Shown here piece after piece: positions 1 to 20,910 of a stretch of DNA of 32,797 nt (position 1 is the first letter of the stretch; the number at the start of each line of letters is the position of its first letter). The translations under genes and the position numbers were made by a program. Location of the stretch: positions 1 to 32,797 of the forward strand of contig CAISHQ010000172.1 in assembly GCA_903885195.1 (NCBI GenBank). Direction: 5' to 3'. The notes below the pieces were generated by a model. The model was not told the origin of the DNA, did not search any database, and was given only the letters and a program-made list of their open reading frames with translations. Origin of the DNA: an uncultured Pseudomonadota bacterium (GTDB lineage: Bacteria > Pseudomonadota > Gammaproteobacteria > Steroidobacterales > Steroidobacteraceae).

Positions 1-1217
1 ATGATGTCGTTGTCGATCACGAGACTCTCGAGCGAGTAGCCGAGCAGACTCGCGTGCATGCCCGCCGACTCGTAGATCATGTTCGCGCCCGAATTGCCGA
101 CGAGGGCATGATTGAGCGCCTTCTCGCCCGCTGCCTGAGCGTCGGCGACCTTGGAGTCGGTCATACCCGAGGCAGTACCGACCGTGAGGTCATAGAAGTT
201 GCCCATCTGACCCGCGGCCGCAGACAACAGCGCCTGCTCGGGGCTGCCGCCCGACATTGCGCCGGTGCGCAGATCCGATACGAAGCACCAGGTGCCGAAG
301 ATCGCGGGATGGCCCGGTTTGATCGCATTCACGTAGACGATGCCCGCGAGCACCTCGGCCACTTCCTGCGCCAACGCGCCGGCGAGGGCCGCAGGCGCCG
401 TAGCGCCCGCCTGCCCCGCCGACAGCAACAGCACGGGCATGCCGCCGCGCACCGCCATTTCGAGGCACTTACAGGCATCGGCTGCGAACTTCATGGGCGG
501 AACCACGAAGCAATTGGACTGGCTGACGAAGGGCCGCTCGCGCCACTTGTCCTCGCCGCCCGCGATCGCATGCAACATCTGCAGCGAGGCTTCGAGGTGA
601 TCCGGATGGACCCAGCTGCTGCCCACGTGCTTGGTGGTACTCATCACCGCGGCGTAGCAGGTGTTGAAGTCCATCTCGAACGGATCAGGGATGTCACGCG
701 GCACGACGGCGCGCTGGAAGAAGTGAATGTGCTCCATCTGATCGACGATGCGACCGATGTCGTAGAGATCACGAATGGTCGACTCGCGGTATACGCCGTT
801 CGCATCAACCATGTTGACCGCAGCCCCGGCCGTGCCGAAGTACGCACGCTTTTCCCAGGGCTCCAGATCGTGGCGCGGATCCTGACCGTGCAACACGAAC
901 TTGCGACCGGCCTTGGCGACCATGTCCTCGACGAGCGAGCGCGGAAACAGCAAGCGACCCGTGTCACTCAAGGTGCAGCCGGCTGCGGTCATGATCTCGA
1001 TGCCCGATTCGGTGGCATCACCCAGACCCACCTCAGCAAGCAGCCGCAACGCCGTTTGATGGATTTGATCAATGCCAGACTGCGTCAGCGGTTGGAAACG
1101 GCCGCTTTGCATACCGGGGCGCACCGGCCGCAGGTGCTCCGGCAAGGGACCTGAACGCTGGGCTCGACGGGCATCTCGTCCGGACGGACGGCGGGCAACT
1201 TGGGCGGCTTCACTCAC
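1..1217 (-). CDS. MttB-family (trimethylamine methyltransferase-like) protein, 3' end cut by window edge
   Basis: The reverse complement from a GTG at 1217 reads open for 405 codons to the left edge, so the C-terminal part is missing. The start ([10 protein letters not shown]) follows a strong GGGGGAG ribosome site at 1227-1233. A short basic tail is followed by family-typical text such as [36 protein letters not shown] and [11 protein letters not shown]. Family members are TIM-barrel methyltransferases that move a methyl group from a quaternary or tertiary amine to a corrinoid protein. The visible part has no in-frame amber codon, so it is not a pyrrolysine-type TMA enzyme; glycine-betaine-type MtgB-like activity is possible but not shown. 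It differs most from the other three family members here. It diverges from cobS. Family assignment is firm and the substrate is unknown. Confidence 0.9.
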
Positions 1218-1288
1218 GATTTAGATCTCCCCCGGGATTTGACGTTAGTATGGCACCTGACTCACGAATATTCAGCCGAACGATCGCA
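1218..1288. promoter_or_regulatory. Divergent promoter region between the MttB-family gene and cobS
   Basis: The 71 bases between the two start codons contain TAGTAT at 1246-1251 on the plus strand. Its overlapping complement reads CATACT at 1253-1248 on the minus strand. Both resemble -10 elements. The minus one leaves a short leader carrying the ribosome site at 1227-1233. The plus one would fit a cobS start at 1289. A TTGACG at 1239-1244 is too close to serve as the -35 for either. No operator or riboswitch is obvious; in particular there is no room for a cobalamin riboswitch of about 200 bases. Confidence 0.3.
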
Positions 1289-2272
1289 ATGTCAGACACC
1301 GATTTGCTGCTGCAGTTGCAACCCGATACCGAAGTTTCCGCACGATCCTTCGGCGTTGCGATCGACCTGGCCGTGCCTGCCTTCAGCACCCGCACCGAAT
1401 ACGTCCCCGACATCGACCCGGCGTACCACTTCGACCCGGAGACGACGCTGGCGATCCTCGCCGGCTTCGCCCACGATCGGCGCGTGATGGTGCAGGGCTA
1501 TCACGGCACCGGCAAATCCACGCACATCGAGCAGGTCGCCGCCCGCCTGAACTGGCCGCTGGTGCGCATCAACCTCGACGGCCATGTCAGCCGCATCGAT
1601 CTCATCGGCCGAGACGCCATCGTGCTGCAGGAGGGTCGGCAAATCACCGAATTCCGCGAGGGACTGTTGCCCTGGGCACTGCAGCGACCGGTCGCGCTGC
1701 TCTTCGATGAATACGACGCCGGTCGGCCGGACGTCATGTTCGTCATCCAGCGGGTGCTTGAGGCGAGCGGCAAGCTCACGCTGCTCGACCAAAACAGGGT
1801 CATCACGCCGCATCGGTATTTCAGGCTCTTCGCGACCAGCAACACCATCGGGCTTGGCGATGCGTCGGGCCTCTACCACGGCACACAGCAGGTGAACCAG
1901 GGACAGATGGATCGCTGGTCGATCGTCGCCATGCTCAATTACTTGCAGCACGAGGTCGAGGTCAACATCGTCTCTGGCAAGGTGCAGGGTTACGCCGACG
2001 AGGCCGGGCAGCGCACTATCAAGGCTATGGTCCGGGTCGCAGACATGACGCGCAACGCCTTCATGAATGGCGACATCTCCACGGTCATGAGTCCGCGCAC
2101 GGTTATCACCTGGGCGCAGAACGCGACCATTTTCCGCGACGTTGCCCTGGCCTTTCGCGTGAGTTTCCTCAACCGCTGCGACGAGCTCGAGCGCCCCACC
2201 ATTGCCGAGTTCTACCAGCGCGCCTTCGGCGTCGAGCTGCCGCTCGTCTCGCCGCAATTGAAAGTGCTCTGA
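1289..2272 (+). CDS. cobS: Aerobic cobaltochelatase subunit CobS
   Basis: This 327-residue AAA+ ATPase belongs to the CobN-CobS-CobT complex that inserts cobalt into hydrogenobyrinate a,c-diamide in the aerobic cobalamin pathway. Walker A is GYHGTGKS at residues 70-77 and Walker B is LLFDEYD at 137-143. Family-diagnostic text includes [59 protein letters not shown] and [12 protein letters not shown] chose the ATG at 1289 because known CobS proteins begin close to this point; an in-frame ATG at 1250 would add 13 unconserved residues and overlaps a possible -10. It is the first gene of a plus-strand run that ends with cobT about 8 kb downstream. CobN, the large chelatase subunit, is not in the window. 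Confidence 0.95.
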
Positions 2273-2282
2273 ACCGCGCACT

Positions 2283-3809
2283 ATGGGCGCAGCACAGCCG
2301 ACATTACTGCTCACTCACGCGCGGGAGTCCTCTTCCTGCCCGCGCCGCGCGCTTGCCGTAGTTGCGCTGCTCTGCGTCGCATTTACGATGCTCACCGGTT
2401 GCGCGAGCACCGAAGAGATCGCCGACGAACCCGAGCCCACCTACATCGCCGAGACGACCGACGAGGTTTTGGCCGCTCCGACCTCGGTGCCATTGAGCGG
2501 CGGAACCGAGGCGGCCCGAGCCTCAGACGAGACGGTGCGGATCGATCGCCCGAAGAACGGACTCGCGGAAGTTGTCGTCGAGACCAAGGCGGACGATCGG
2601 CACGAGGTGATCCGCGATCTCGTTGTCGAAGCTCGCAACCTGCTGCGCAAAGTTGAACTGCAATACGTCTTCACCGGCAAGGGGCGTCGCGAGACGCTAC
2701 GCGGTCGTCCCGTGGCGTTTGCGCTGTGGAGCGAGGCCAGTCAGTCGTGGTCGGTTGCCCATGTGGAAATTCCCCGTCCCCCCGTCCGGTGGCGACCGGG
2801 TGGTCGGCCCATGCCCTTCGTGCTGCGCGCCCCCGGCATCACGGCGCAGCACGTCAAAGGCACGGGCGCTGAGCGGCTGATGTTCTCGTTCCGCAAGGGC
2901 GATGAGCCACTCAAGGTGTATGGCCGCAAGTTCCCGGTATTCGACAGCAAGCTGATCGCCAAGCGGCGCTGGCGCGCAGTCGCAGAGACCGCCAAGCCCA
3001 TCGTCTACCTGCCTTTCACGGCCGACACCCTCGATCCGCGCTTCGTGACCGACGGACGTGACTACCTTCGGGCCACGGCAACACGGGCCATCGAGGAGTT
3101 GCGTCGTGCGGCCGTGCCCTCCAGCGCGTTCCCCGGCAAACTGTTGGCCGACGTCGTGCCCGCTGAGGTGATCATGACGCTGGCGGTGATCGAGCAGACG
3201 GACGACATCGATTTCCGACGCACGCAGCTGAAGGCTTTCGAGGAGGTGCTCAGCCAGTACGGTCTCAAGCGCGAGGAGGCCTACCGCTTCAGCATCTCTC
3301 GCGCCAAGGCGATCGGCCCGATGCAGTTCACCAATCGTCGCGGCAATGGCACCTACGCCCTCGTCGTGCGCCGCTGCCCCGGTGCGCGACTGGATCCGAA
3401 TTTCGAGCGGGGGGCGACCGACCTGCTCAACGCCATGAAAGCGGCGATTTGCCTCTTCGATATCGAACTGAGGCAGATGCCGGCGCAGATTCGCGAGGCC
3501 TATTGGGACAACAAGACCGTGCTCGGTATTTTCCCGGTGGCCGCCTACAACGGCGGACCGCGCAACGTCACGCGCCTGCGGCGCGTGCTCGATCGCATGG
3601 GCGTCAGCATCACGGCACTGCGCGCGGCGCCAGCAACCGGCACTCAGCCGGGGACGATCACCAGTGATTTGGCCGTGCCCTGCCCCTGCGTGTGGCGCGA
3701 GGGACCGGATGGCGTCACCCCGGTGACCATACCGAGCTACAACAACGAGAACCGCTGGTACATCGAAAAGTACCAAAGCATCATCAACCTGCTCGGGGAG
3801 CGCTCGTGA
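2283..3809 (+). CDS. Outer-membrane lipoprotein with a lytic-transglycosylase-like (SLT) domain
   Basis: This is a 508-residue protein with a lipoprotein signal: a basic stretch, a hydrophobic segment at residues 23-36, and lipobox LTGC with Cys40. Residues about 60-290 match nothing I recognise. The C-terminal part resembles lytic transglycosylases that cleave the peptidoglycan glycan backbone: TLAVIEQTDD with candidate catalytic Glu304, AIGPMQFT at 343-350 (the usual GLMQ-type motif) and AAYNGGPRNV at 420-429 (the AAYNAG motif). The usual ES pair is EQ here. It starts ten bases after cobS stops and its last four bases overlap the next start, so it is probably co-transcribed. Why a cell-wall enzyme sits in a cobaltochelatase run is unclear. 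Enzymatic activity is an inference from motifs. Confidence 0.75.
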   Translation: MGAAQPTLLLTHARESSSCPRRALAVVALLCVAFTMLTGCASTEEIADEPEPTYIAETTDEVLAAPTSVPLSGGTEAARASDETVRIDRPKNGLAEVVVETKADDRHEVIRDLVVEARNLLRKVELQYVFTGKGRRETLRGRPVAFALWSEASQSWSVAHVEIPRPPVRWRPGGRPMPFVLRAPGITAQHVKGTGAERLMFSFRKGDEPLKVYGRKFPVFDSKLIAKRRWRAVAETAKPIVYLPFTADTLDPRFVTDGRDYLRATATRAIEELRRAAVPSSAFPGKLLADVVPAEVIMTLAVIEQTDDIDFRRTQLKAFEEVLSQYGLKREEAYRFSISRAKAIGPMQFTNRRGNGTYALVVRRCPGARLDPNFERGATDLLNAMKAAICLFDIELRQMPAQIREAYWDNKTVLGIFPVAAYNGGPRNVTRLRRVLDRMGVSITALRAAPATGTQPGTITSDLAVPCPCVWREGPDGVTPVTIPSYNNENRWYIEKYQSIINLLGERS

Positions 3810-5326: not shown

Positions 5327-5333
5327 GTGACCC

Positions 5334-6590
5334 ATGAAAACGCTGCGCATTCGCTGGTGGATCTACGCGTACATGTTCGCCTTCGCTGCTATGGCCTATG
5401 TGCAGCGCACCACCATCTCAGTGGCGGCTCCCGAACTCACGGCGACACTGCAGTATTCGACGCAGCAGATCGGCTGGTTATTCTTCGCCTTCACCACAGC
5501 CTACGCGCTCAGCCAACTACCGGGCGGCGCCCTCGGTCAGCGGCTCGGGCCACGCGTGATGTTCACTGTGGCCGGGATCATCGGCGTGATCGCAACGCTC
5601 GGCACTGCGTTGCTTCCCTATGTGTTAGCTGGCGCAGCGCTGTTGATCGTGCTGATCGTCGCGCAAAGTCTGCTCGGCGCCGGTCAAGGCCCCGTGTTCC
5701 CGGTGCTGGCCGTAGTGATCGAGCGCTGGTTCCCGTCGAGACAGTTCGCCATGGCCAATGGCGTAGTCAGCTCCGGCATGCTGCTGGGCGGTGCCTTGAC
5801 CCCGCCGCTGCTCGTGGCGCTCACCGCGACACTCGGCTGGCAGCAGGCCGTGCTCGTCACGGCGATTCCCGCCGTGCTGCTGACTCTCGGCTGGTGGCAC
5901 TACGGTCGTGATCGACCGCAGCAGCATGCACGGGTGACAGCGGAGGAACTCGCCGAACTCGATAGCGTGCCACCCGCTCCGCCACTCACCTTTGCGCGCA
6001 TGGGCGAGGTACTGCGCAACCGGAACATCGTGCTGCTCGCCGTCTCATATCTATGCATGAACTTCGTGTTTTACATGATCAGCTTCTGGTCGTTCATGTA
6101 TCTGGTTCAGGAGCGCAAGTTGAGCGGGCTCGAGAGCGGACTGACCGCGATGATTCCGTGGATCGGCGCCGCGATCGGCGCCGCGATCGGCGGCGTGCTT
6201 GCCGATCGCTTGGCCACTCGTCTCGGCGCCACGCGCGGTTATCGGCTCGTACCGATCTTCAGCCTGCCCGCCGGCGCCCTGTTGCTGCTCGCCATTCCTG
6301 TCGTCGACAGTGTGCTGCTCGCCGTGGCGGCCTTGGCGCTGGCGTTCTTTGCCATGGAGCTCAACGAGGGCCCGTACTGGGCCGCTACGATGAACCTCGC
6401 TCGTGCCGACACCGGCGCAGCCACTGGCGTGCTCAACACAGGCGGCAACGTCGGTGGAATGATCTGTCAGCCCGTCGTGGCGGCGCTCGTGGCGGACGGC
6501 CACTGGAACGATGCGTGGATCGCAGGGGCCGTCTTTGCCGCCGTCGCGGCGGCGCTCTGGGGTCTGGTGCGCTGCGAGCGACCCTCGTGA
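5334..6590 (+). CDS. MFS transporter, ACS (anion:cation symporter)-like
   Basis: This 418-residue inner-membrane carrier has about twelve hydrophobic segments in two halves and a short charged central loop near residues 195-225. Early text TISVAAPELTATLQYSTQQIGWLFFAFTTAY and the GxLxxRxGxR-type loop (GALGQRLGPR) fit the hexuronate/tartrate/organic-anion (ACS) branch of the major facilitator superfamily. The ATG at 5334 is preceded by AGGTGA. It starts seven bases after the phosphoesterase stop and is followed 16 bases later by an MttB-family gene, so it may import that enzyme's substrate or a carboxylated relative such as a betaine. The specificity is inference only. Confidence 0.85.
   Translation: MKTLRIRWWIYAYMFAFAAMAYVQRTTISVAAPELTATLQYSTQQIGWLFFAFTTAYALSQLPGGALGQRLGPRVMFTVAGIIGVIATLGTALLPYVLAGAALLIVLIVAQSLLGAGQGPVFPVLAVVIERWFPSRQFAMANGVVSSGMLLGGALTPPLLVALTATLGWQQAVLVTAIPAVLLTLGWWHYGRDRPQQHARVTAEELAELDSVPPAPPLTFARMGEVLRNRNIVLLAVSYLCMNFVFYMISFWSFMYLVQERKLSGLESGLTAMIPWIGAAIGAAIGGVLADRLATRLGATRGYRLVPIFSLPAGALLLLAIPVVDSVLLAVAALALAFFAMELNEGPYWAATMNLARADTGAATGVLNTGGNVGGMICQPVVAALVADGHWNDAWIAGAVFAAVAAALWGLVRCERPS
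6161..6196 (+). repeat. Short tandem repeat of 12 bases inside the MFS gene
   Basis: The unit GATCGGCGCCGC occurs perfectly at 6161-6172 and 6173-6184, with a degenerate third copy at 6185-6196. It encodes an IGAAIGAAIGG stretch in a membrane helix, a small-residue helix-packing motif. It keeps the frame, and copy-number change would lengthen the helix by four residues. Confidence 0.6.
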
Positions 6591-6606
6591 GCGGCACGGT
6601 GCCGTC

Positions 6607-8148
6607 ATGACGGAAGGCAAATTGGCGGCGCGACGCGGACGCGAGGTGCGCCGGGCGGCGCGCGCGCAAGGCGATCTCGTTAAGCTCGGCGCGATTCATC
6701 GCCGGATCCCGGCCGTGGAGCTACTGCATTCCGAGGCAGTCGAAATCATCGAGCACAACGCTGAGACGATCCTCGAAGAAATCGGCATCGAGTTTCGGCG
6801 TGATCCCCCCTCGCTGCAGCTTTGGCGCGATGCGGGTGCGGACGTGCAGGGCGAACGCGTCAGGCTGCCTCGCGGCTTGTGTCGACACCTGCTACGCAGC
6901 GCACCGTCCGTCTTCAAAGTACACGCGCGCAATCCGACCCGTACGGTGCAGTTTGGCGGTGACGTCACTGTGTTCTCGCCGGTCGGCGGTCCGCCCTTCG
7001 TCACCGATCTCGACCGCGGTCGTCGCTACGCCACGCTCGAGGATCTGGTCAATTTCATCAAGCTTGCACAGATGGCTCCGGCGATTCATTTTTCAGGTGG
7101 CAGCGCCTGCGAGCCGATGGACATCCCGCCGGGCAAGCGTCACCTCGACGTGCAGTACGCGTACTTCCGCCACAGCGATCAAGCCTGCGAGGGCACGCCC
7201 GAAACACCGGGACACGCCGCCGACGCCGTGCGCATGGCGCAACTCGTGTTCGGTGCCGACTTCGTCGATACGCACGCGGTGCTGCTCGGCAACATCAATT
7301 CCAACTCGCCGCTGACGTTCGATGGCCGCATGCTCGGTGCACTGCGAGAGTTTGCAGCGCACAATCAGGGCACGATCGTCGTGCCCGCCGTGCTCGCCGG
7401 GGCCATGGGACCGGTGACGCCGGCCGGCTGCATGGCGGAGATCCTCGCCGAGACGCTCGCCGGCATGGCGCTCACCCAACTGGTACGGCCCGGCGCACCC
7501 GTGATCATGGGCTCGTTCGTCGGTGCCGTCTCCATGCGCTCCGGTTCACCGACCTTCGGCACGCCGGAGGCCACGCAGATGATCTTCGCGACCGCGCAAC
7601 TCGCGCGACGTCTTGGTATCCCGTGTCGCAGCGGTGGCGGCCTGTGTTCCTCGAAGATGGTCGACGCCCAAGCAGGCTACGAGAGCGCCAACACACTGCT
7701 GCCCACCGTGCTGGCGGGCGTACACCTCGTGACCCACGCGGCCGGATGGCTCGAAGCGGGACTCGTCGCGAGTTACGAGAAGTTCGTCATGGACGCAGAC
7801 CAGCTCGCGATGCTGCACAGCTTGGCCGGTGGAATGGATCTCAGCGAACGCGGCCAAGCCATGGATGCCATTCGCGAGGTGGGTCCCGGCAGCCATTTTC
7901 TAGGCTGCGCGCATACGCTCGCCAACTTCGAAAGCGCCTTTTATCAGTCGACGATTGCCGACTATTCCTCGTTCGAACAGTGGTCAATCGAGGGCAGCTT
8001 GAGCGCCGAGCAGCGCGCGAATCGTGTGTGGAAGAAGATGCTCGCCGACTACGTGGACCCAGGTCTCGATCCGGCGATCGACGAAGCGCTGCAAGCGTTC
8101 ATGACCCGGCGCCGGGCGGAACTTGGCGATGCGGTAGAGGAAGATTGA
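6607..8148 (+). CDS. MttB-family methyltransferase-like protein (second copy)
   Basis: This 513-residue protein is full length for the family. A basic N-terminal tail (KLAARRGREVRRAARAQ) precedes the TIM barrel. Typical text includes ILEEIGIEFRRDP, GNINSNSPLTFDGRM, MGPVTPAGC, VRPGAPVIMGSF, SGSPTFGTPE, DAQAGYESANTLLP and AGWLEAGLVASYEKFVMDADQ. It is visibly closest to the gene at 19342 and further from the other two. The reading frame has no amber codon. The ATG at 6607 is chosen because the open frame upstream lies inside the MFS gene. The ribosome site is weak, so translation may be coupled to the MFS gene. It probably demethylates a quaternary or tertiary amine using a corrinoid acceptor that must be encoded elsewhere; substrate unknown. 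Confidence 0.9.
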   Translation: MTEGKLAARRGREVRRAARAQGDLVKLGAIHRRIPAVELLHSEAVEIIEHNAETILEEIGIEFRRDPPSLQLWRDAGADVQGERVRLPRGLCRHLLRSAPSVFKVHARNPTRTVQFGGDVTVFSPVGGPPFVTDLDRGRRYATLEDLVNFIKLAQMAPAIHFSGGSACEPMDIPPGKRHLDVQYAYFRHSDQACEGTPETPGHAADAVRMAQLVFGADFVDTHAVLLGNINSNSPLTFDGRMLGALREFAAHNQGTIVVPAVLAGAMGPVTPAGCMAEILAETLAGMALTQLVRPGAPVIMGSFVGAVSMRSGSPTFGTPEATQMIFATAQLARRLGIPCRSGGGLCSSKMVDAQAGYESANTLLPTVLAGVHLVTHAAGWLEAGLVASYEKFVMDADQLAMLHSLAGGMDLSERGQAMDAIREVGPGSHFLGCAHTLANFESAFYQSTIADYSSFEQWSIEGSLSAEQRANRVWKKMLADYVDPGLDPAIDEALQAFMTRRRAELGDAVEED

Positions 8149-8158: not shown

Positions 8159-8161
8159 ACC

Positions 8162-8167: not shown

Positions 8168-8198
8168 TCATGGCGACCTGCATTCCGGAGATACGTGA

Positions 8199-9113
8199 AT
8201 GTCGATCCGTTCCCTAGGCTCAGCCGAATGGCTGGTGATCGCGCGCTTCGCGCTCATGGGACTTGAGATGCTGCTCGTCAAGGCGCATCTGGTGCGTGGC
8301 CACTACGAGTGGCGTGACACCCTCGCCTCCATCGGCATGCGCGCCGGTAACTACCTCAGCAACGTGCTCCTCGCAGGCGCGGTGGTGGCCGTGTTCGCCG
8401 TTCTCTACGAGCACCGGCTGTTCGAGATCTCCTCTGCCTCACCCTGGGCGTGGGCTGCGCTCGTGGTGCTCGATGACTTCGCCTACTACTGGTTCCATCG
8501 CGCAAGCCATGAGTGCCGATTCTGGTGGGCCGCCCACGTCAATCACCACTCATCGCAGCACTACAATCTGTCGACCGCGATCCGTCAGCCGTGGACGGGC
8601 GTGCTGGTCGGTACCTGGGCACCGTGGTTTCCGTTGGTGCTGCTCGGCTTTCCGCCGGAGATGATCTTCGTGCAAAGCGGCTTCAGTCTGCTCTACCAGT
8701 TCTGGTTGCACACCGAATCGATTCGACGGATGCCGCGCTGGTTCGAGTATCTATTCAATACACCGTCGCACCATCGCGTACATCATGCCGCCAATCCGCG
8801 CTACGTCGATCGCAACTATGGCGGCACACTCATGGTCTGGGATCGACTGTTCGGCACCTTCGCAGCTGAGAGCGACCAGGAGCCCTGCCGGTACGGACTC
8901 ATCAAGAACATCGATACCTACAACCCCATCAAGATTGCCTTTCACGAGTGGGCGGCCATCGTCCGCGACGTTCGCTCCGCACGCTCGCTGCGTGAGGCCT
9001 TTCGTTACGTCTTCGGACCGCCAGGCTGGCAACCCGATGGTCGCGGTCCCACCGCAGACAATCTTCGAGCGAGTTGGCTCGCGGCTCAGTCCCGACCCGG
9101 CGTATCGACTTGA
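8199..9113 (+). CDS. Sterol desaturase / fatty acid hydroxylase-superfamily membrane protein
   Basis: This 304-residue integral membrane protein has hydrophobic segments near residues 10-28, 50-70, 82-98 and 135-170. It carries the complete histidine signature of the non-heme di-iron hydroxylase superfamily: His100-x3-His104 (HRASH), His113-x2-His116-His117 (HVNHH) and His192-x2-His195-His196 (HRVHH). Members use oxygen to hydroxylate or desaturate lipids such as sterols, carotenoids or alkylglycerols; this one's substrate cannot be assigned. GGAG lies about ten bases before the ATG. Its end overlaps the start of cobT, so the two are probably translated together. A role in the methylamine pathway is not evident. 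Confidence 0.88.
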
Positions 9114-10984
9114 CCGTTTCCGGCGTAATCAAATCCGGCACCGCGAGTCCCTTCGAACGCGTACTCGCCGAGGCGACCCGAGCACTCGCCGGCGATGCGG
9201 CACTGAAGGTCGTGTTCGGTCCTTCCGGGCCGCGGCTCGAAGGCGATCGACTCTTGCTGCCTGTGCCGCCTGCGGAGTTATCGGCCACCCAGCGCGCGCT
9301 GCTACGCGGACACGCCGACCGACTCGCGCTGCGCCGGGCTTATCACGACCCGACCGTGCACGCGCGTTATCGTCCACCCGGCTACCGTGCTCGAGCCGTG
9401 TTCGACGCGCTCGAAGAAGCGCGCTGTCTGTCCTTCGGAGCGCGTGACCTTGAAGGCGTTGCCGCCAATATCGCTGCGGTCCAGCATGAAGAACTGCAAC
9501 GCAGCGGCGTGCTGCGCGGGCCCGGCGACAACTCCGAGGCCATGACCCACGCCCTCGCCCTGCTCGTTCGCGAGCAGCTCGCCGGACTGTCAGTACCTGC
9601 AGAAGCACAGCCGCTGGTGGATCGCTGGCGGCCGTACTTCGACAAGCGGCTCAAGGACGGGCTCGCAACCCTCGAGCGCACGTTGAACGACCAGGACGCC
9701 TATGCCCGCGAGCAACAGCGGGTGTTGCGCTCCTTGGGACTGGGACATGAGCTCGCCGAACCCCGAGTCGTGCCCCCCGCACCCGCCAAGACCAAGGCGG
9801 CGCCCCCACCGGCATCGCCCGGTTCAACCGCAGCCGGCACATCAGGCGAAGACTTGGGCGTGCAACGCGCACACGAAATCGCCGAAGAGGACGAACCCGA
9901 CATCGAACCGCGCACGCCGCAGGCGCAAACACGCTCGCCGCAGCCGCCGGCGGAGGGTGAACAGACATCAGACTCACCCGAGGGCAGCCGCCTGAGTCGC
10001 ATCGGTGAACTCGATCGCGATCATCCGAACCGCTCGTATCGAGTATTCACCCGAGCCCACGACGAGGTGTTCGAGGCCGAGGAACTCAGTGACAGCGCGA
10101 CGCTCGCTCGTTTGCGAGCTACGCTGGACGAGCAGGCGCGGCAACTGCCCGGCATCGTCGCGCGTCTCGCCCGCCGACTCGAACGCGCGCTGCGTGCGCA
10201 GCAGCGTCGTCGCTGGCAGTTCGATCTCGAGGAGGGAATTCTCGATCCGGCGCGACTTGCGCGCGTGCTGACCGAGCCGCTCGCTCCGCTGTCTTTCAAG
10301 CAGGAGACCGAAACCGATTTCAAGGATACGGTGGTCACTCTGCTACTCGACAATTCCGGCTCCATGCGCGGCCGGCCTATCCTGCTCACGGCTCTTTGCG
10401 CAGATCTGCTCGCGCGCACCCTGGAGCGCTGCGGCGTACGTACGGAAATTCTTGGCTTCACCACACGCGAGTGGGATGGCGGAAGATCGCGCGCCGACTG
10501 GATTGCCGCAGGCGCGCCGCGTAACCCTGGGCGACTGACGGACGTGCGTTACATCGTCTACAAGACGGCCGACACGGCGTGGCGCCGCGCACGTGCCAAC
10601 CTCGGTCTGCTGCTTCGCGATGATCTGATGAAGGACAACATCGACGGCGAGGCGCTGTGGTGGGCGTATCAGCGACTGCTCGCACGACCTGAGCGACGGC
10701 GGATACTCATGACCATCTCCGACGGCGTACCACTCGATCAAGCCACGCTGTCAGCCAACCCGGGGGGCTACCTCGACCAGCACCTGCGTCAGGTCATTCG
10801 CTGGATCGAAAAAGACGCCGCCGTCGAACTCGTCGCCATAGGCATCGGTCACGAGGTCGGCGATTACTACCGCAGGGCCGTAGCCATTGGCAGTACAGAC
10901 GATCTCGGCCCAGCGATGATTGGTGAGCTCGGCGGACTATTCGAGAACAGCCGGGAACCCGGCCGCGCGCAGGTCCGTACCTAG
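9074..10984 (+). CDS. cobT: Aerobic cobaltochelatase subunit CobT
   Basis: This protein of about 636 residues is the CobT partner of CobS in cobalt insertion. An N-terminal helical region carries [19 protein letters not shown] and the EEARC segment. A Pro/Ala- and acid-rich linker lies near residues 235-310. The C-terminal von Willebrand A domain has MIDAS motif DNSGSMRG starting at Asp426, then [42 protein letters not shown] and [15 protein letters not shown], all strongly CobT-like. The start is uncertain: TTG at 9074 gives the longest frame, while TTG at 9110 forms a TTGA overlap with the hydroxylase stop and would drop 12 residues. Its 3' end overlaps a convergent gene by 48 bases. It is separated from cobS by five genes, which is unusual because cobS and cobT are normally close together. 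Confidence 0.93.
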
Positions 10985-12979: not shown

Positions 12980-13091
12980 ATTGCGGCCGGATGCTAGCCC
13001 ACGGACTGGTCATCACACGACTGGAAAGCGACTCTGGCTTGCTAGATTGCGCCCCGCTCCCTTTCGCACCTGCCGGCATAATCTGCGAGCA
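12980..13091. promoter_or_regulatory. Divergent promoter region between the enolase-superfamily gene and the SDR gene
   Basis: In 112 bases, the minus strand has TAGCAT (plus coordinates 12991-12996) eleven bases before its ATG. The plus strand has CATAAT at 13077-13082 nine bases before the ATG at 13092, and an alternative TAGATT at 13043-13048. Neither gene has a clear Shine-Dalgarno sequence, so the close spacing suggests leaderless or nearly leaderless transcripts. No clear -35 or operator symmetry is visible. Confidence 0.35.
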
Positions 13092-13883: not shown

Positions 13884-13894
13884 GTCGAACCGGA

Positions 13895-13900
13895 TACACT
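13895..13900 (+). promoter_or_regulatory. Possible -10 element before the third MttB-family gene
   Basis: TACACT matches the -10 consensus at four of six positions. It lies just after the SDR stop, 47 bases before the ATG at 13948, and leaves a leader with GAGGAC as ribosome site. A good -35 is not visible, so a separate promoter for the demethylation genes is only possible. Confidence 0.25.
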
Positions 13901-13947
13901 GCGCCTTGCGATCAGGATCACCGAAATTCGAATGAGGACGACAGCCG

Positions 13948-15510
13948 ATGAATGACCCCGCGCAGGACGCTCCGTCAACGGCCGAGCGCCGTCCGCGTCG
14001 CCGCGCCGCCGCGCCGGTCGCCGACACACCCGCTCGGCAATCGCGTTACCGGCACCTCGTCAATCCGTTCGAGCCGCTCAAAGTATTCTCCGACGATCAG
14101 GTCGCCGCCATCCACGCGAGCGCTCTGACCATGCTCGAAAATCAGGGCATGCGGGTGCTGCTGCCTGAGGCCCGCGAAACCTACCGCCGCGGCGGCGGGC
14201 AGGTGGACGAGTCGACGCTGACCGTGCGCCTGGATCGCGGACTTGTCGAACAGTGCCTTGCGCTTGCGCCGCGCGAAATCGTGTTGCGTGCTGCACGGCC
14301 GGAGTTCGACATGCCGGTGTGGGGCAAGCACGTGATGTTCGCGCCCACCTCGGGCCCGCCAAACATCATGGACACCACGCGCGGCAAACGCGCCGGGTCC
14401 TTCGAGGACTTCTGCAACATCATCAAGATTTGTCAGAGCTTCGAGGTCATGCACGGGCTCGGCGGCTTGGTCGAGCCGCAGGACATTCCGGTCCAGTTCC
14501 GCCATCTCGAAACCACGCGCGCAATGCTGTTGATGTCGGACAAGATCCCGAAGGTGTATGCGCGCGGCCCCGGACAGACCGTCGACAACTTCGAGATGAT
14601 CCGCATCGCCTACGGACTGACCGAAGAAGAATTCCGGTCGCGGCCCTGCGTCACCACCATCATCAATACGAACTCGCCGCTGCAGCTCGACATCCCGATG
14701 GCGAACGGCATCATGGATTACGCGGCAGCGGGTCAAGTGCTGATCATCACGCCCTTCACGCTCGCCGGAGCGATGGCGCCCGTGACCATTGCGGGGGCGC
14801 TCACTCTCGCGCACGCCGAGGCGCTGGCCGGGCTGTGCCTTGCGCAAATGGTGAGACCGGGCGCGCCCATCATCTACGGCAGCTTCACCTCGAACGTCGA
14901 CATGAAATCGGGCTCGCCGGCCTTCGGTACCCCGGAGTACGTGAAGGCCGCGTTCGGCGCGGGGCAACTCGCCCGACACATCGGCCTGCCCTGGCGCTCA
15001 TCGAACGCGACCGCATCCAACTGCGCCGACGCGCAGTCGGCCTACGAGTCGCAGATGAGCCTCTGGGGCGCGTTGATGGGCGGTTGCAACTACATCCTGC
15101 ACGCGGCCGGATGGCTCGAGGGCGGCCTGACCACCTCGTACGAGAAATTCATCCTCGACATCGAGATGCTGCAGATGTTCGCCGAGGTTTTCCAGCCCGT
15201 TGGCGCGAGCGCGGACGACATCGCCCTTGATGCCGTGGCCGAGGTCGGTGCTGGCGGACATTTCTTTGGTTGTGCCCATACGATGGCGCGCTACCGAACG
15301 GCCTTCTACGCCCCGCTTGTCTCGGACTGGCAGAACTTCGGCCAGTGGGAGGCTGCCGGCGCAAAGACCGCCACCGAGCGCGCCGCCGAGATCTGGCGGC
15401 AGGTGGTCGATGCCTACCAGCCCCCTGCGCGTGACCCGGCCATCGTCGAGGCACTCAATGATTACGTCGCCCGCCGCACGGCTGAAGGTGGCGCGCCCCC
15501 GGTGAGTTAA
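13948..15510 (+). CDS. MttB-family methyltransferase-like protein (third copy)
   Basis: A 520-residue protein with a basic, Ala/Arg-rich N-terminal tail of about 40 residues followed by the MttB TIM barrel. Typical text includes MLENQGMRVL, FAPTSGPPNIMD, IINTNSPLQLD, AGAMAPVTIAGAL, VRPGAPIIYGSF, SGSPAFGTPEY, CADAQSAYES and AGWLEGGLTTSYEKFILDIEM. It keeps the family frame but differs clearly from the copies at 6607 and 19342 (SSNATASN where they have SGGGLC), suggesting another substrate. There is no amber codon. It stops 21 bases before the FAD-GcvT dehydrogenase, the tightest link in the window between an MttB homologue and an enzyme of methylglycine breakdown. A glycine-betaine or related demethylase is plausible but unproven. 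Confidence 0.9.
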   Translation: MNDPAQDAPSTAERRPRRRAAAPVADTPARQSRYRHLVNPFEPLKVFSDDQVAAIHASALTMLENQGMRVLLPEARETYRRGGGQVDESTLTVRLDRGLVEQCLALAPREIVLRAARPEFDMPVWGKHVMFAPTSGPPNIMDTTRGKRAGSFEDFCNIIKICQSFEVMHGLGGLVEPQDIPVQFRHLETTRAMLLMSDKIPKVYARGPGQTVDNFEMIRIAYGLTEEEFRSRPCVTTIINTNSPLQLDIPMANGIMDYAAAGQVLIITPFTLAGAMAPVTIAGALTLAHAEALAGLCLAQMVRPGAPIIYGSFTSNVDMKSGSPAFGTPEYVKAAFGAGQLARHIGLPWRSSNATASNCADAQSAYESQMSLWGALMGGCNYILHAAGWLEGGLTTSYEKFILDIEMLQMFAEVFQPVGASADDIALDAVAEVGAGGHFFGCAHTMARYRTAFYAPLVSDWQNFGQWEAAGAKTATERAAEIWRQVVDAYQPPARDPAIVEALNDYVARRTAEGGAPPVS

Positions 15511-15531
15511 CCCAGACGGAAGAGATCGAAC

Positions 15532-17943
15532 ATGAAGAACACGGCACAGGTGGTGGTGATCGGCGGCGGCGTGGTCGGCGTCAGCGTGCTGTATCACCTG
15601 ACCAAGGCAGGCTGGCGGGACGTGATGCTCATCGAGCGGGCCGAACTCACCTCGGGCTCGACGTGGCACGCCGCCGGCGGCATGCACACGGTCAACGGTG
15701 ATCCGAACGTCGCCAAGCTGCAGCAGTACACGATCAACCTGTACCGCGAGCTTGAGCAAATTTCGGGGCAATCTTGCGGTCTGCACATCACTGGCGGGCT
15801 GATGCTCGCCGGCACGCCGGAGCGTCTCGACTGGCTGAAGATGACGGTAGCCCGGGGCCGATACCTCGGCATGGAACTCGAGCTCATCGATATGGTGGAA
15901 ACGAAGAAACGTTATCCGCTGCTTGATGAGCGGCATTTCGTGGGCGCGATCTACGATCCGATCGAAGGACATGTGGACCCGTATGGCGTCACCCACGCCT
16001 ATGCCAAGGCAGCGCAGATTGGTGGTGCCGAGATCGTGCGCCAGTGCCGAGTCACTGACCTACGGCAGCGCGCCGACGGCAGCTGGGATGTGATCACCGA
16101 GCAGGGCAACGTGCATGCCGAGCACGTCGTCAACGCCGGCGGCCTTTGGGCCCGCGAGGTCGGTCGCATGGTGGGGCTCGAGTTGCCCATCCTCGCGATG
16201 GAACACCAGTACATCATCACCGACGATTTGCCGGAACTCGCCGGACAACCCGAGTTGCTGCACGTCATCGACTTCGAGGGTGAGATCTACATGCGCCAGG
16301 AGCGCGGTGGCGTGCTGCTCGGCACCTACGAGCGCGCCGGGGTCCCCTGGTCGCCGCGCACGACACCCTGGGACTTCGGGCAGGATCTGCTGCCGAATGA
16401 TCTCGAGCGCATCGCGCCGAGTCTCGAAGTCGGCTTCAAACATTTCCCGCGCCTCGGCGAGGTCGGCATTCGCAAGATCGTCAACGGCCCGTTCACGTTC
16501 GCACCGGATGGCAACCCGCTCGTCGGGCCTGTGCCCGGACTGCGCAACTTCTGGGTGGCCTGCGGCGTCATGGCAGGTTTCAGCCAGGGCGGCGGCGTTG
16601 GCCTCGCGCTCTCGCACTGGATGGTCGATGGCGATCCGGGCGCCGACATCTGGGCGATGGACGTCGCCCGCTATGGCGAGTGGGCCACACGCAGCTACAC
16701 CAACACCAAGGTCCGCGAGAATTACTCGCGTCGCTTCCGCATCCGCTTCCCCAACGAGGAGTTGCCGGCCGCACGACCGCTGAAGACCACGCCGATCTAC
16801 GAGCCCTTGAAGGCGGAGAATCCGCTGTGGGGCGATTACTGCGGTCTCGAGCATGCCTTGTGGTTTGCGCCGCAGGGCAGCGCAGCGCACGAGGAGGTGA
16901 CCTTCCGACGCTCCAATGCGCACGAACATGTGGGCGCCGAGTGCCGAGCGGTGCGCGACGCTGTCGGCATGATCGAGATCTCCAATTACGGCAAGTTCGA
17001 AGTCACGGGCCGGGATGCCGAACGCTGGCTTGGACGCGTCATGGCCAACAAGGTGCCAGCCAAGGGCCGAGTCACGCTCACACCGATGTTGAACGAGCGT
17101 GGCAAGCTCATCGGTGATTTCACCATGTGCCGCATCAACGCCGAACGCTTTTTGCTGATCGGCACCTACGCCGCCGAACGCTTCTACCAGCGCTGGTTCG
17201 AAGCACGCACGGCGGGCTTTGACGTGCAGGTTCGAGCCTGCGCGATGGAGTGGCTGGGGCTTGCGTTGGCAGGTCCCGCCTCCCGCGAAGTGCTGCAGAC
17301 GCTCGTCGATGAGGATCTGTCGACCAAGGCATTCCCGTTCATGTCCTTCGGCGCGATGGACGTGGGACTCGTGCCTGCGCTCGTCGGTCGACTGTCCTTC
17401 ACGGGTGAACTCGGCTACGAGATCTGGGTGAAGAACGAATTCCAGCGCGAGCTCTACACGCGGCTCGTCGCCGCGGGTAAACCGTTCGGGCTGCGGCACT
17501 TTGGCGGGCGCGCTCTCAACTCGCTGCGCATGGAAAAAAGCTTTGGCAGCTGGGCCCGCGAGTATCGGCCGATCTACGGCCCGTACGAGGCGGGACTCGA
17601 TCGGTTCGTCGACCTCAACAAGCCCGAGTTCGTCGGCCGCGAGGCCGCCGTCGCCGAGAAATCACAGGGCGGCGCGCGCAAGCTCATCACCCTCGAAATC
17701 GACGCGCGCGACTGCGATGCGATCGCCGATGAGCCGATTTGGCTCGACGGCAACGTCGTCGGCTGGGTGACCTCGGGTGCCTACGGTCACGCCTCGCGCA
17801 AGTCACTCGCCCTCGGTTACGTGGATGCCGCCTGCGCGCAGGCCACGAGTGGTTTCGAAGTCGAGCTCATCGGCGAGCGTCGACCCGCCCTGCGCCTTGC
17901 AACACCCGCCGTGGATCCGACCGGCCAACGCATGCGCACCTAA
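15532..17943 (+). CDS. Dimethylglycine/sarcosine dehydrogenase-like FAD oxidoreductase fused to GcvT domain
   Basis: An 803-residue two-part enzyme. Residues 1 to about 380 form a DAO-type FAD domain: GGGVVG at 11-16, and STWHAAGG, in which His46 is at the position covalently joined to FAD in dimethylglycine and sarcosine dehydrogenases. After a linker (YSRRFRIRFPNEE..RPLKTTPIYE), residues about 430-803 are an aminomethyltransferase (GcvT) fold with SNYGKFEVTG, RGKLIGDFTMCRI, FTGELGYEIWV and LRMEKSFGSWAREY. Such fusions oxidise an N-methyl group and pass the carbon to tetrahydrofolate, or release formaldehyde when folate is absent. GGAAGAG precedes the ATG. It lies between an MttB-family gene and a homocysteine methyltransferase-like gene. 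Dimethylglycine, sarcosine or another N-methyl amino acid are all possible substrates. Confidence 0.9.
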   Translation: MKNTAQVVVIGGGVVGVSVLYHLTKAGWRDVMLIERAELTSGSTWHAAGGMHTVNGDPNVAKLQQYTINLYRELEQISGQSCGLHITGGLMLAGTPERLDWLKMTVARGRYLGMELELIDMVETKKRYPLLDERHFVGAIYDPIEGHVDPYGVTHAYAKAAQIGGAEIVRQCRVTDLRQRADGSWDVITEQGNVHAEHVVNAGGLWAREVGRMVGLELPILAMEHQYIITDDLPELAGQPELLHVIDFEGEIYMRQERGGVLLGTYERAGVPWSPRTTPWDFGQDLLPNDLERIAPSLEVGFKHFPRLGEVGIRKIVNGPFTFAPDGNPLVGPVPGLRNFWVACGVMAGFSQGGGVGLALSHWMVDGDPGADIWAMDVARYGEWATRSYTNTKVRENYSRRFRIRFPNEELPAARPLKTTPIYEPLKAENPLWGDYCGLEHALWFAPQGSAAHEEVTFRRSNAHEHVGAECRAVRDAVGMIEISNYGKFEVTGRDAERWLGRVMANKVPAKGRVTLTPMLNERGKLIGDFTMCRINAERFLLIGTYAAERFYQRWFEARTAGFDVQVRACAMEWLGLALAGPASREVLQTLVDEDLSTKAFPFMSFGAMDVGLVPALVGRLSFTGELGYEIWVKNEFQRELYTRLVAAGKPFGLRHFGGRALNSLRMEKSFGSWAREYRPIYGPYEAGLDRFVDLNKPEFVGREAAVAEKSQGGARKLITLEIDARDCDAIADEPIWLDGNVVGWVTSGAYGHASRKSLALGYVDAACAQATSGFEVELIGERRPALRLATPAVDPTGQRMRT

Positions 17944-17967
17944 GGCGCTGCGGGTCCGCCATCGCAC

Positions 17968-18891
17968 ATGCGCAACGCCGCCTACGCCGCACTGCTGCAA
18001 CGCCTGCGAGCGGGCGAGTGCGTGCTGCTCGATGGCGGCGTAGGCACCGAAATCCAGCGTCAAGGCGCGCCGATGAGCACCGCGCTCTGGTGCGCTGAGG
18101 CCAATCTCAGCCACCCCGAGATTGTCCTTCGCGTCCATCGCGACTATCTGGCAGCCGGTGCTGAGGTCGTCACCGCCAACACCTTCGCCAGCAGCCCATT
18201 GCTGCTCGAACACTTCGGTCGGTTGGACGAGATGGAACGCATCGATGCCGTCGCGCTCCGTGTTGCGCGCGAAGCGGCGAGCAGCAGCGGCGCCGTGGTC
18301 GCAGGCTCCATGTCGACGATGCGCCCGACCGTCCCCGGCTCCGACCGCACGCAGCAGAGCCACGGGTGGACCGAGGAGGCTGCACGCGCCCTCTTTGCAC
18401 GCAAGGCTGCGAGCCTGCGCAACGGCGGCGCCGAATTCATCCTCATGGAGATGATGCGCGACCTCGACTACTCGCTCTGGGCCTGTGAGGCAGCGCTCGC
18501 GAGCGGGTTGCCGGTGTGGATCGGTCTTTCAGTCGAGCGCAACGCCGAGGGTCGGCTCGTCGGCTTCGGGCGGCAAGACTGCGAACTGGAGCCTGTCGCG
18601 GCCGGCCTCGCCGCGCTGCGGCCCGACGCCATGGCGATCATGCACACCTCGGTGGACGACACGCTGCCCGCGCTCGAGGTCCTGCGACGCCATTGGTCAG
18701 GACCCACCGCCGCTTACCCGGAATGCGGACGCTACGAAGCGCCAGACTGGAAGTTCATCGGCGTCGCACCCCCCGACGAATACGCGGCTCTATCTCGCCA
18801 GTGGCGGCGGCTCGGCGCGCATGCGCTCGGCGGCTGCTGCGGCGTCGGCCCCGAGCACATCGCCTCGCTGCGTCGGGAACACCCGCGATGA
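17968..18891 (+). CDS. Homocysteine S-methyltransferase-family protein with altered zinc triad
   Basis: A 307-residue barrel of the Hcy-binding (BHMT/MmuM/MetH N-terminal) family: LLDGGVGTEIQRQG at residues 20-33, VVTANTF at 67-73, LMEM with Glu161, and GGCCGVGPEHI with Cys290-Cys291. Family enzymes bind zinc through three cysteines and activate homocysteine to accept a methyl group from betaine, S-methylmethionine or methylfolate. Here the first cysteine (INC in relatives) aligns with His226 in AIMHTS, giving a His-Cys-Cys set, so zinc binding may persist but reactivity may differ. It follows the FAD-GcvT gene by 24 bases and overlaps the next start by four. Betaine:homocysteine methyltransferase is one possibility; a non-homocysteine thiol acceptor is another. 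Confidence 0.82.
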   Translation: MRNAAYAALLQRLRAGECVLLDGGVGTEIQRQGAPMSTALWCAEANLSHPEIVLRVHRDYLAAGAEVVTANTFASSPLLLEHFGRLDEMERIDAVALRVAREAASSSGAVVAGSMSTMRPTVPGSDRTQQSHGWTEEAARALFARKAASLRNGGAEFILMEMMRDLDYSLWACEAALASGLPVWIGLSVERNAEGRLVGFGRQDCELEPVAAGLAALRPDAMAIMHTSVDDTLPALEVLRRHWSGPTAAYPECGRYEAPDWKFIGVAPPDEYAALSRQWRRLGAHALGGCCGVGPEHIASLRREHPR

Positions 18892-19271
18892 AAACCGGCT
18901 CCTGTCTCTGCGGTGGCGTGCGCTTCGAGCTGCGTGGCCCACTCGATGAGGTGATCGCCTGCCACTGCACGCAGTGTCGCAAGCAGACCGGTCACCACTG
19001 GGCCTCAACCCACACGGCCGATGCCGACCTGCACCTGATCAGCAGCGACTCCCTGCGCTGGTACCGCTCGAGCGAGCAGGCCCAACGAGGGTTTTGCGAC
19101 CGCTGCGGGTCGTCGCTCTTCTGGAAGCGCGTGGGCGCCACGGTCACCTCGGTGTGCGTCGGCTCGATCGATGGCCCCTCGGGCCTGACGCTGGGCGGCC
19201 ACATTTTCGTCGCCGACAAAGGCGACTATTACTACATCAGCGGGGGCGACTATGCGAAAGAGCAGTACTGA
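18888..19271 (+). CDS. GFA-family (glutathione-dependent formaldehyde-activating-like / CENP-V) zinc protein
   Basis: A 127-residue protein that starts at the ATGA overlap with the upstream stop; the longer open frame on the left lies inside the previous gene and is rejected. Zinc-binding cysteines appear as SCLCGG (Cys6, Cys8), CHCTQCRKQTG and CDRCGSSLFW, with the closing SGGDY, all typical of the GFA fold. One family member promotes S-hydroxymethylglutathione formation from formaldehyde; most are uncharacterised. Its position directly behind an N-methyl-amine dehydrogenase that can release formaldehyde makes a formaldehyde role reasonable here, but this is inference from context. Confidence 0.88.
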   Translation: MKTGSCLCGGVRFELRGPLDEVIACHCTQCRKQTGHHWASTHTADADLHLISSDSLRWYRSSEQAQRGFCDRCGSSLFWKRVGATVTSVCVGSIDGPSGLTLGGHIFVADKGDYYYISGGDYAKEQY

Positions 19272-19274
19272 CGC

Positions 19275-19335
19275 GGGCAGGCAAGTCGATGCCGCTTCTG
19301 GGTCAGTCCCCACCCCCCGGCCTGCCCATAATTTT
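19275..19335 (+). terminator. Possible terminator or structured leader between the GFA gene and the fourth MttB-family gene
   Basis: GGGCAGGC at 19275-19282 pairs perfectly with GCCTGCCC at 19320-19327. The 37-base loop contains a small TGGG/CCCA hairpin, and the distal arm is followed by ATAATTTTT. The long loop makes this weaker than a classical rho-independent terminator. It could end or attenuate the upstream operon. Confidence 0.35.
19327..19332 (+). promoter_or_regulatory. Possible -10 element for a leaderless fourth MttB-family transcript
   Basis: CATAAT (five of six consensus bases) lies nine bases before the ATG at 19342, and no Shine-Dalgarno sequence fits between them. The start of transcription would fall at or next to the start codon. 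No clear -35 is visible. Confidence 0.35.
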
Positions 19336-19341
19336 TGAATC

Positions 19342-20910
19342 ATGAGCGATACCTCGACAACGACGGCAAGCAGCCGGCGCCCAAACGCCCGAGACGCCAA
19401 GCGTGCCGCACGCACGGCGCGAGGCGCCGCCTCCCAGCCGTACATCTTGCGCAAGATCCCGCGCTTCGAAGTACTCGGCGAAGAGGGCCTCGCGATCATC
19501 GAGGACAACGCCGATCGCATCCTCGAAGAGGTTGGCATCGAATTTCGCGAGGACCCCGAAGTTCTCGAGATCTGGCGCAAGGCCGGAGCGAACGTCGATG
19601 GTGAACGCGTGCGCATGCCGCGTGGCATGTGCCGACAGCTCATTCGCGAACACGCGCCACGCGAGTTCACGCAGGTGGCCCGCAACCCCGCTCGTGATGT
19701 GCGTATCGGTGGCGATGCGACGGTCTTCGTACCCGCGTACGGTTCGCCGTTTGTGCGCAACCTCGATGAAGGGCGTCGCTACGCGCGCATCGAGGACTTC
19801 CGCAACTTCGTCAAGCTCGCCTACATGGCGAACTCGCTGCACCATTCAGGCGGCACCATCTGCGAGCCTGTGGATTTACCGGTCAATAAGCGCCACCTCG
19901 ACATGGTCTACAGCCACGTCAAGTACAGCGACAAGGCGTTCATGGGTTCGGTGACCGCACCGGATCGCGCCGCAGACTCGGTGGAGATGGCCAAGATCGC
20001 ACTCGGCGAGCGGCACATGGATCCGCTCACGGGTCGCCCGAACACGGCCCTCGTGAACCTGATCAACGTCAACTCGCCGATGACCTATGACGCGACCATG
20101 CTCGGCGCCCTCAAGGTCTACGCGCGCGCCAATCAGGCCTGCCTCGTCACGCCGTTCATCCTGGCCGGGGCGATGGCGCCGGTCACTGTGGCCGGCACGG
20201 CGACCCAGACACTGGCCGAGGCCTTGGCCGGCATGGCGCTCGTACAATTGCTGAATCCGGGCGCACCGGTGATCTTCGGCAGCTTCGCCTCGTCGATGTC
20301 GATGCAATCAGGTGCGCCGACGTTCGGTACACCTGAACCCGCGCTCGTGCTGTACGTGATGGGCGCCCTCGCCCGACGTCTCGGCGTACCGTTTCGTTCG
20401 GGCGGTGGGCTTTGCGCCTCCAAGATCGCCGATGCGCAGGCAGCGTATGAGTCGGCGCAAACCATGCTGCCGACCTGTCTCGCCGGCGTGAACTTCGTGT
20501 TGCACACCGCCGGCTGGCTCGAGGGTGGGCTCACCATGGGCTACGAGAAGTTCATGATGGACGTCGACCAGGCGGGCATGTTCCACACCATGCTCGCGGG
20601 CGTCGACGTCACGCCAAACGGTCAGGCCATGGACGCCATCGCGGAAGTCGGTCCAGGGAAGCATTTCCTTGGCTGCGCGCACACCCAGGCCAACTTCGAG
20701 ACGGCGTTCTACCGCTCGCCACTCGCCGATAACAACAGCTTCGAACAGTGGGATGCGGAAGGCGCTCTCGACATGGCGCAGCGGGCGAACCGGCAGTACA
20801 AGCGGATGCTCGAGGACTACGTGCCCCCGCCGCTCGACCCGGCGATCGACGAGGCGCTGCTCGACTTCATGGCGCGGCGCAAGGCCGCAGCCCCCGACTC
20901 GAACGTCTAG
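19342..20910 (+). CDS. MttB-family methyltransferase-like protein (fourth copy)
   Basis: A 522-residue, full-length member. A basic N-terminal tail (SSRRPNARDAKRAARTARGA) precedes ILEEVGIEFREDPEVLEIWR, LINVNSPMTYDATMLGALK, AGAMAPVTVAGTA, NPGAPVIFGSF, SGAPTFGTPE, SGGGLCASKIADAQAAYES, AGWLEGGLTMGYEKFMMDVDQ and FLGCAHTQANFETAFY. Line-by-line comparison shows it is the near relative of the copy at 6607, including the shared C-terminal FEQW and DPAIDEAL segments, so the two probably arose by duplication or act on related amines. No in-frame amber codon. It has no visible ribosome site. A TPR-sulfotransferase gene follows after 29 bases. Confidence 0.9.
   Translation: MSDTSTTTASSRRPNARDAKRAARTARGAASQPYILRKIPRFEVLGEEGLAIIEDNADRILEEVGIEFREDPEVLEIWRKAGANVDGERVRMPRGMCRQLIREHAPREFTQVARNPARDVRIGGDATVFVPAYGSPFVRNLDEGRRYARIEDFRNFVKLAYMANSLHHSGGTICEPVDLPVNKRHLDMVYSHVKYSDKAFMGSVTAPDRAADSVEMAKIALGERHMDPLTGRPNTALVNLINVNSPMTYDATMLGALKVYARANQACLVTPFILAGAMAPVTVAGTATQTLAEALAGMALVQLLNPGAPVIFGSFASSMSMQSGAPTFGTPEPALVLYVMGALARRLGVPFRSGGGLCASKIADAQAAYESAQTMLPTCLAGVNFVLHTAGWLEGGLTMGYEKFMMDVDQAGMFHTMLAGVDVTPNGQAMDAIAEVGPGKHFLGCAHTQANFETAFYRSPLADNNSFEQWDAEGALDMAQRANRQYKRMLEDYVPPPLDPAIDEALLDFMARRKAAAPDSNV

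Follow-up and report, generated by a model that had tools for sequence, protein, structure and literature searches.

The stretch of DNA analysed here (the window) is the entire contig C172, CAISHQ010000172.1, of 32,797 nucleotides, from the draft genome of an uncultured gammaproteobacterium of the family Steroidobacteraceae (GCA_903885195.1, genome G000; 2.72 Mb, 201 contigs, 97.13% complete, 3.87% estimated contamination). It carries an island with four genes of the MttB methyltransferase family. A first-pass annotation had placed these four genes, and a Pfam scan of 24 open reading frames of the window confirmed them with PF06253, all far above the cut-off of 25 bits. It needs correction, however, in that the first gene is encoded on the minus strand, that homocysteine S-methyltransferase-family and FAD/GCV_T genes are interspersed with the copies and that a CobS/CobT pair was overlooked. 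The four MttB genes are the following.

3..1217, minus strand: MttB4, MttB-family methyltransferase; the contig end truncates the gene and leaves 405 codons of its 5' part; PF06253 289.8 bits.
6607..8148, plus strand: MttB2, MttB-family methyltransferase with its own orthologous group; PF06253 705.1 bits.
13948..15510, plus strand: MttB3, MttB-family methyltransferase with its own orthologous group; PF06253 657 bits.
19342..20910, plus strand: MttB1, MttB-family methyltransferase, nearest to the Sinorhizobium meliloti protein of PDB 4YYC (66% identity); PF06253 774.6 bits.

The remainder of MttB4 was recovered on contig C167, the end of which overlaps the reverse complement of the window exactly over 141 bp. 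The joined gene has 519 codons, is open over its full length and encodes a protein 97% identical to its orthologue in the sister genome G015; the three complete genes likewise have no internal stop. Neither pyrrolysine nor an in-frame amber codon was found in the MttB proteins of the window, as had been noted before, and the only TAG is the terminal codon of MttB1. TIGR02369, the model of pyrrolysine MttB, was the sole NCBIfam match, with scores of 258.5-311.3 (MttB4 scored as a partial protein) below its cut-off of 525, and none of the four has a substrate-level NCBIfam match. Besides the rest of MttB4, the draft genome holds one more PF06253 piece, on contig C106. This is the C-terminal part (156 amino acids) of a fifth MttB paralogue, which lies at the start of the contig (L020, 1-471) and faces an FAD/GCV_T gene; its N-terminal part was not found in the genome.

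The copies had been sorted by eye into three lineages, with those at 6607 and 19342 close, that at 13948 distinct and the first the most distant, and the identities to MttB1 bear this out (MttB2 57%, MttB3 40%, MttB4 27%). A tree of 78 rows, comprising the four window copies, 71 proteins from relatives and three solved structures, was used to examine these lineages; PF06253 matches of genomes G010, G012 and G021, as well as gene pieces, were omitted from it. Each copy falls in a separate supported group with orthologues from several genera. Support is 100/100 for each of the MttB2, MttB3 and MttB4 groups, and for MttB1 98/90 with its relatives and 95/75 once PDB 4YYC is added. The glycine betaine enzyme MtgB of Desulfitobacterium hafniense (PDB 2QNE, 9YCE) joins MttB1-3 in one large group (100/99), with 46% identity to MttB1 and MttB2 and 37% to MttB3. 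MttB4 stands outside this group, with 27% identity to MtgB and 24-27% to the other three copies. Since long-branch joins were flagged, the deep branching order is unsure.

The absence of an MttC-type corrinoid protein and of RamA from the island, on which the first-pass annotation had remarked, was borne out for the whole window: neither C172 as a whole nor any of the 24 scanned reading frames matched PF02607, PF02310 or PF14574. The same three profiles, applied to all contigs of the draft genome, detected both an MttC-like protein and a RamA-type activase on contig C181. The corrinoid protein (235 amino acids, MttC/MtgC-like) contains B12-binding_2 and B12-binding domains and a DxHxxG motif. 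Its gene is followed on one strand by genes for DUF1638 (104.9 bits), Virulence_fact, MTHFR C-terminal, MetF, Pterin_bind (MtgD-like, 108 bits) and RACo proteins, the last being the sole RACo_C_ter protein of the genome (298.9 bits). Upstream of the corrinoid gene are genes for an AraC-type regulator and, in divergent orientation, an FAD/GCV_T protein. Matches to both PF02607 and PF02310 occur on C181, C79, C32 and C153, and to PF02310 also on C40; C47 and C15 have B12-domain matches below cut-off. C79 encodes a complete MetH and C40 methylmalonyl-CoA mutase. The reading frame on C32 was set aside as a rival partner because it is a MerR-type regulator, and that on C153 (294 amino acids) because it adjoins a PAS/Fis regulator. 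Since the other proteins above cut-off are thus MetH, the mutase, the MerR-type regulator and the 294-residue protein, the C181 protein is the only MttC-like candidate. The four MttB enzymes therefore very probably have a vitamin-B12 partner protein on another contig of their own draft genome. The C153 protein and its neighbour, a PAS-PAS-Fis regulator (L014, 31-2343), form a pair that we take to be reminiscent of the AerR/PpsR photosynthesis regulators.

A sample of 60 genomes, made up of G000 and 59 relatives, was used to assess the relation between this operon and the MttB genes. In G015 a single contig (C48) carries the operon at 3.9-10.1 kb and, about 35 kb away, orthologues of MttB1, MttB3, MttB2 and MttB4 at 45.5-65.5 kb; the other window genes mostly keep their order there. 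C181, C172 and C167 align in that order to this contig, with 80-84% DNA identity over large blocks. G020 likewise has the operon on one contig with MttB1, MttB3 and MttB4; the MttB1 orthologue adjoins the operon in G025, G040, G042 and G055, and in G055 mtgC is flanked by the MttB4 and MttB1 orthologues. Synteny with these relatives suggests that C181 and C172 are linked in G000 as well. The partner genes would then be missing from the window because the contig ends before them, and gene content of C181 and synteny with G015 both back the earlier suggestion of a shared corrinoid protein encoded elsewhere. MttC and RamA genes beside the copies, which that annotation had named as evidence against its idea of an island lacking a partner, are thus found in four relatives, while in G000 itself the two sets lie on different contigs.

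Co-occurrence was counted across the sample. MttB is present in 23 and RACo in 24 of the 60 genomes; 22 have both, one has MttB alone (G053), two have RACo alone (G044 and G058) and 35 have neither (p=4e-13, the species not being independent). An activase in 22 of the 23 MttB-bearing genomes argues against the other explanation offered at first, that this branch uses another methyl acceptor. An MtgC-like protein, counted at a threshold of at least 68% identity, was found in 21 genomes, one in each, all of which have MttB. The number of PF06253 matches per MttB-bearing genome ranges from 1 to 8, gene pieces included. In G032:C33 (with a TGA), G021:C43 and G012:C247 the matches lie as adjoining pieces, for which either gene decay or misassembly may be responsible.

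In a wider search of genome contigs with MttB1, the best 80 of at least 582 confirmed matches, mostly from proteobacterial metagenome-assembled genomes, were kept. Among these 80, the retrieved flanks of 23 contained all three of MtgC, MtgD and RamA, and at least one of the three was seen in 35 of the 65 loci that span 10 kb or more, a count made without an identity filter for MtgC. The named cultured relatives Pseudomonas borbori, Halomonas lysinitropha and HTCC2148 carry all seven genes of the operon next to an MttB1-like gene. The record CAMAQZ010000006.1 (L077; 61,362 bases, as G004:C6), titled as a Klebsiella pneumoniae metagenome-assembled genome, bears the island as well, and its title looks like a mislabel.

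Both features of this arrangement, aerobic MttB enzymes and the sharing of one corrinoid protein by several paralogues, are precedented in the available text of two papers (PMC12478193 and PMC8604678). Mausz et al. 2025 (PMC12478193) describe the MtgBCD gene set for glycine betaine from aerobic Pseudomonadota and report genetic work on MtgC and MtgD, so that the initial statement that MttB systems are known mainly from anaerobes is outdated. According to the portion of that paper available, Ruegeria pomeroyi has MtgBCD(E) glycine betaine demethylation and a split methionine synthase, and MtgBCD occurs in only 28 of 239 metH genomes. As in the Ruegeria system so described, G000 has an MttB-family donor, a separate MtgC-type corrinoid protein, a pterin-binding MtgD and RamA, with DUF1638, a MetF paralogue and downstream demethylation genes nearby. 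Unlike that system, it has at least four old MttB lineages and the fifth fragment, MetH in addition, and CobS/CobT inside the island. The available part of another paper (PMC7857596) mentions neither RamA, DUF1638 nor MtgB.

In Eubacterium limosum, three MttB paralogues methylate one corrinoid protein encoded apart (Ellenbogen et al. 2021, PMC8604678, as far as the accessible text goes). The likeness to its MtpB, MtcB and MtyB, drawn from their description there, is that non-pyrrolysine MttB paralogues lie apart from the genes for the corrinoid protein (MtqC), tetrahydrofolate methyltransferase (MtqA) and activase (RamQ). E. limosum is an anaerobic acetogen with 42 MttB homologues, in which corrinoid sharing is proven, whereas in G000 it is inferred. 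D. hafniense, the host of MtgB, is anaerobic and Gram-positive by the available text of PMC12478193. The pyrrolysine enzyme of Methanosarcina barkeri (PDB 7XCL) belongs to the same family, PF06253; it shares 24-30% identity with MttB1-4, which have no amber codon at the site. As a further likeness to the M. barkeri system, a DxHxxG motif is present in the corrinoid protein of C181.

We consider it highly probable that the island encodes arms for individual substrates within an MtgBCD-type system, aerobic and corrinoid-dependent, that demethylates quaternary amines and has its hub on C181. Provided that the genes are expressed, each MttB paralogue would demethylate a different N-methylated compound, glycine betaine or a related betaine, and pass the methyl group to the MtgC-like product of C181 as the corrinoid protein common to all of them. 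From there the MtgD-like pterin-binding enzyme would transfer it to tetrahydrofolate, and MetF and the MTHFR-C-like protein would oxidise it. The RACo/RamA-type activase, with DUF1638, may restore Co(I), and the FAD/GCV_T dehydrogenases that adjoin MttB genes could demethylate the products further. Substrates, direction of methyl flow and use of a single MtgC by all copies are here predicted from the genes and their arrangement.

Several observations weigh against this interpretation. The assembly is a draft with the estimated contamination given above, and in it C181 and the window are not on one contig. In G010 (77% complete) and G014 (97%), MttB and RACo occur without an MtgC-like match of at least 68% identity, and G053 has MttB and MtgC without RACo; moreover, there is a TGA within the MtgC matches of G056 and G053, and G028 has its match split in two. 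In the wider search, MtgC, MtgD or RamA was seen in the retrieved flanks of only 40 of the best 80 loci. Finally, the corrinoid-interface residues of the window copies are not conserved with Methanosarcina MttB. Gly110, Thr111, Glu225, Tyr364, Gly372 and the loop 396-452 of 7XCL, the roles of which are given in the available text of PMC9842639, were compared. For MttB1-4 in order, the Thr111 column reads Gly, Gly, Gly, Ala (MtgB, Gly), the Glu225 column Thr, Thr, Gln, Lys (MtgB, Lys) and the Gly372 column Gly, Gly, Gly, Leu (MtgB, Phe); at Pyl334 the residues are Leu, Leu, a gap and Met (MtgB, Leu). The first-pass annotation had named full conservation at this interface in all four copies as evidence against its idea. 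The window copies do differ from the Methanosarcina enzyme at several positions, but so does MtgB, and because this proven enzyme departs as well, the contacts cannot tell corrinoid users from others and were dropped as a test of corrinoid use.

The divergence of MttB4 raises the question of whether only MttB1, and perhaps MttB2 and MttB3, uses the C181 protein, with MttB4 separate and served by free corrinoid or another acceptor. Its place outside the group of MtgB and MttB1-3, its low identity to the other copies, two FAD/GCV_T neighbours of its own on C167 and a loop, aligned to the MttC-contacting loop, with only 19-28% identity to that of the other copies would all fit such a division. 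Yet the MttB4 orthologues on the tree come from 12 relatives, every one of which has RACo, mtgC lies between MttB4 and MttB1 orthologues in G055, no second MttC-like protein was found in G000, and the residue differences are present in MtgB as well. We thus regard a separate MttB4 as unlikely.

That the MttB copies are relics, or catalyse another reaction without a corrinoid step, is very improbable. Some relatives do have MttB in pieces, such as G032:C33 with its TGA, and these lineages have no known activity, but all four reading frames of the window are uninterrupted, that of MttB4 once joined, and each copy has orthologues in several genera. More improbable still is a binning error, by which C181 would belong to another organism and the MttBs, left without partner genes, would use another acceptor. 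The draft state of the genome, its contamination estimate and the separation of C181 from C172 would allow for it; the ordered alignment of C181, C172 and C167 to one G015 contig and the activase in nearly all MttB-bearing genomes speak against it.

The other genes of the island are as follows.

1250..2272, plus strand: CobS-like AAA+ ATPase; TIGR01650 595 bits (cut-off 558.55), PF07728, PF12556.
5334..6590, plus strand: MFS transporter, PF07690, adjoining MttB2, in G015 likewise.
9074..10984, plus strand: CobT-like VWA protein; PF11775, PF06213; TIGR01651 673.9 bits, below its cut-off of 759.05.
15532..17943, plus strand: FAD/GCV_T protein with DAO, FAO_M, GCV_T and GCV_T_C domains.
17968..18891, plus strand: homocysteine S-methyltransferase-family protein; PF02574 157 bits, below all NCBIfam cut-offs, C-terminal GGCCG motif kept.
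18891..19271, plus strand: GFA-family protein (Pfam: glutathione-dependent formaldehyde-activating enzyme); PF04828 73.9 bits.

The FAD/GCV_T and homocysteine S-methyltransferase-family genes sit between MttB copies. From its domains, the former product would be of the dimethylglycine/sarcosine dehydrogenase type, although no NCBIfam model among the 25 listed was above cut-off, and the latter is a possible MtgE counterpart; set against the Ruegeria MtgE, in the available account of that system, it is only a putative one, from its family match. The MFS transporter beside MttB2 is a possible importer. On C167, two FAD/GCV_T genes lie directly behind MttB4 (L021, 487-5385 and 5399-10223), and past them are genes that resemble, by eye, those for an ABC transporter of the spermidine/putrescine type and its binding protein.

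CobS and CobT are subunits of the aerobic cobaltochelatase CobNST; here CobS is above the NCBIfam cut-off, and CobT is below it and above the Pfam cut-off. No CobN subunit was found in G000, though at 97% completeness one may conceivably have been lost from the draft. The sole CobN-family (PF02514) protein of the genome was rejected as CobN, being BchH-like by its DUF3479 N-terminus and its ChlI- and ChlD-like neighbours. It lies on G000:C2 (L068, 4776-11914), flanked by the ChlI-like and ChlD-like AAA proteins and a methyltransferase, and this magnesium-chelatase-type cluster suggests bacteriochlorophyll synthesis and hence a photoheterotroph.

Across the 60 genomes, 12 have both CobT_C and MttB, 11 MttB only, none CobT only and 37 neither (a marginal match in G034 dropped). 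In a class-wide sample of 229 genomes the corresponding numbers were 7, 5, 5 and 212 (p=1e-7; five weak CobT matches in genomes without MttB dropped). Matches to PF02514 do not track CobT, which occurs in 7 of 24 genomes with such a match and 5 of 36 without (p=0.19), and in the class-wide sample only 3 of the 12 genomes with a strong CobT have any CobN-family match, untyped outside G000. CobS adjoins CobT in 13 of 13 further loci checked, and the pair adjoins the MttB4 gene in G020, G032 and G076, which represent three genera. The two genes are adjacent in G020; in the window and in G015 they are parted by a block of the MFS transporter and MttB2, which looks like an insertion.

The island CobS/CobT might be a dedicated AAA+/VWA helper of the MttB/MtgC system, for instance in loading, remodelling or reactivating the corrinoid protein, and not a cobaltochelatase, a role that we hold to be possible and yet rather doubtful. 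Caulobacter vibrioides and Bacillus subtilis, used as controls, match CobT_C without PF02514 or PF06253, and orphan CobT is therefore not restricted to MttB-bearing genomes. The five class-wide genomes with CobT and without MttB count against a helper too, and CobST beside MttB was not seen outside the family of the window in the stretches retrieved. No description of an orphan CobST was found in the titles or abstracts of the literature searched. The association of CobT with MttB is the most novel lead; were the link causal, two genes that commonly carry the annotation cobaltochelatase would gain a function.

The four-gene feature is thus real and its explanation largely known: the genes very probably form an extended array of arms, each for its own substrate, in an aerobic corrinoid methyltransferase system with a hub outside the window. 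The aerobic MtgBCD route would in this way reach an uncultured gammaproteobacterial family, in which a single corrinoid hub may serve at least four old MttB lineages. The titles of relatives' records, for example K_Offshore_120m, bog_1223 and palsa_1201, suggest oxic water or soil as the habitat, and with a hub that has several arms these bacteria may demethylate several quaternary amines there.

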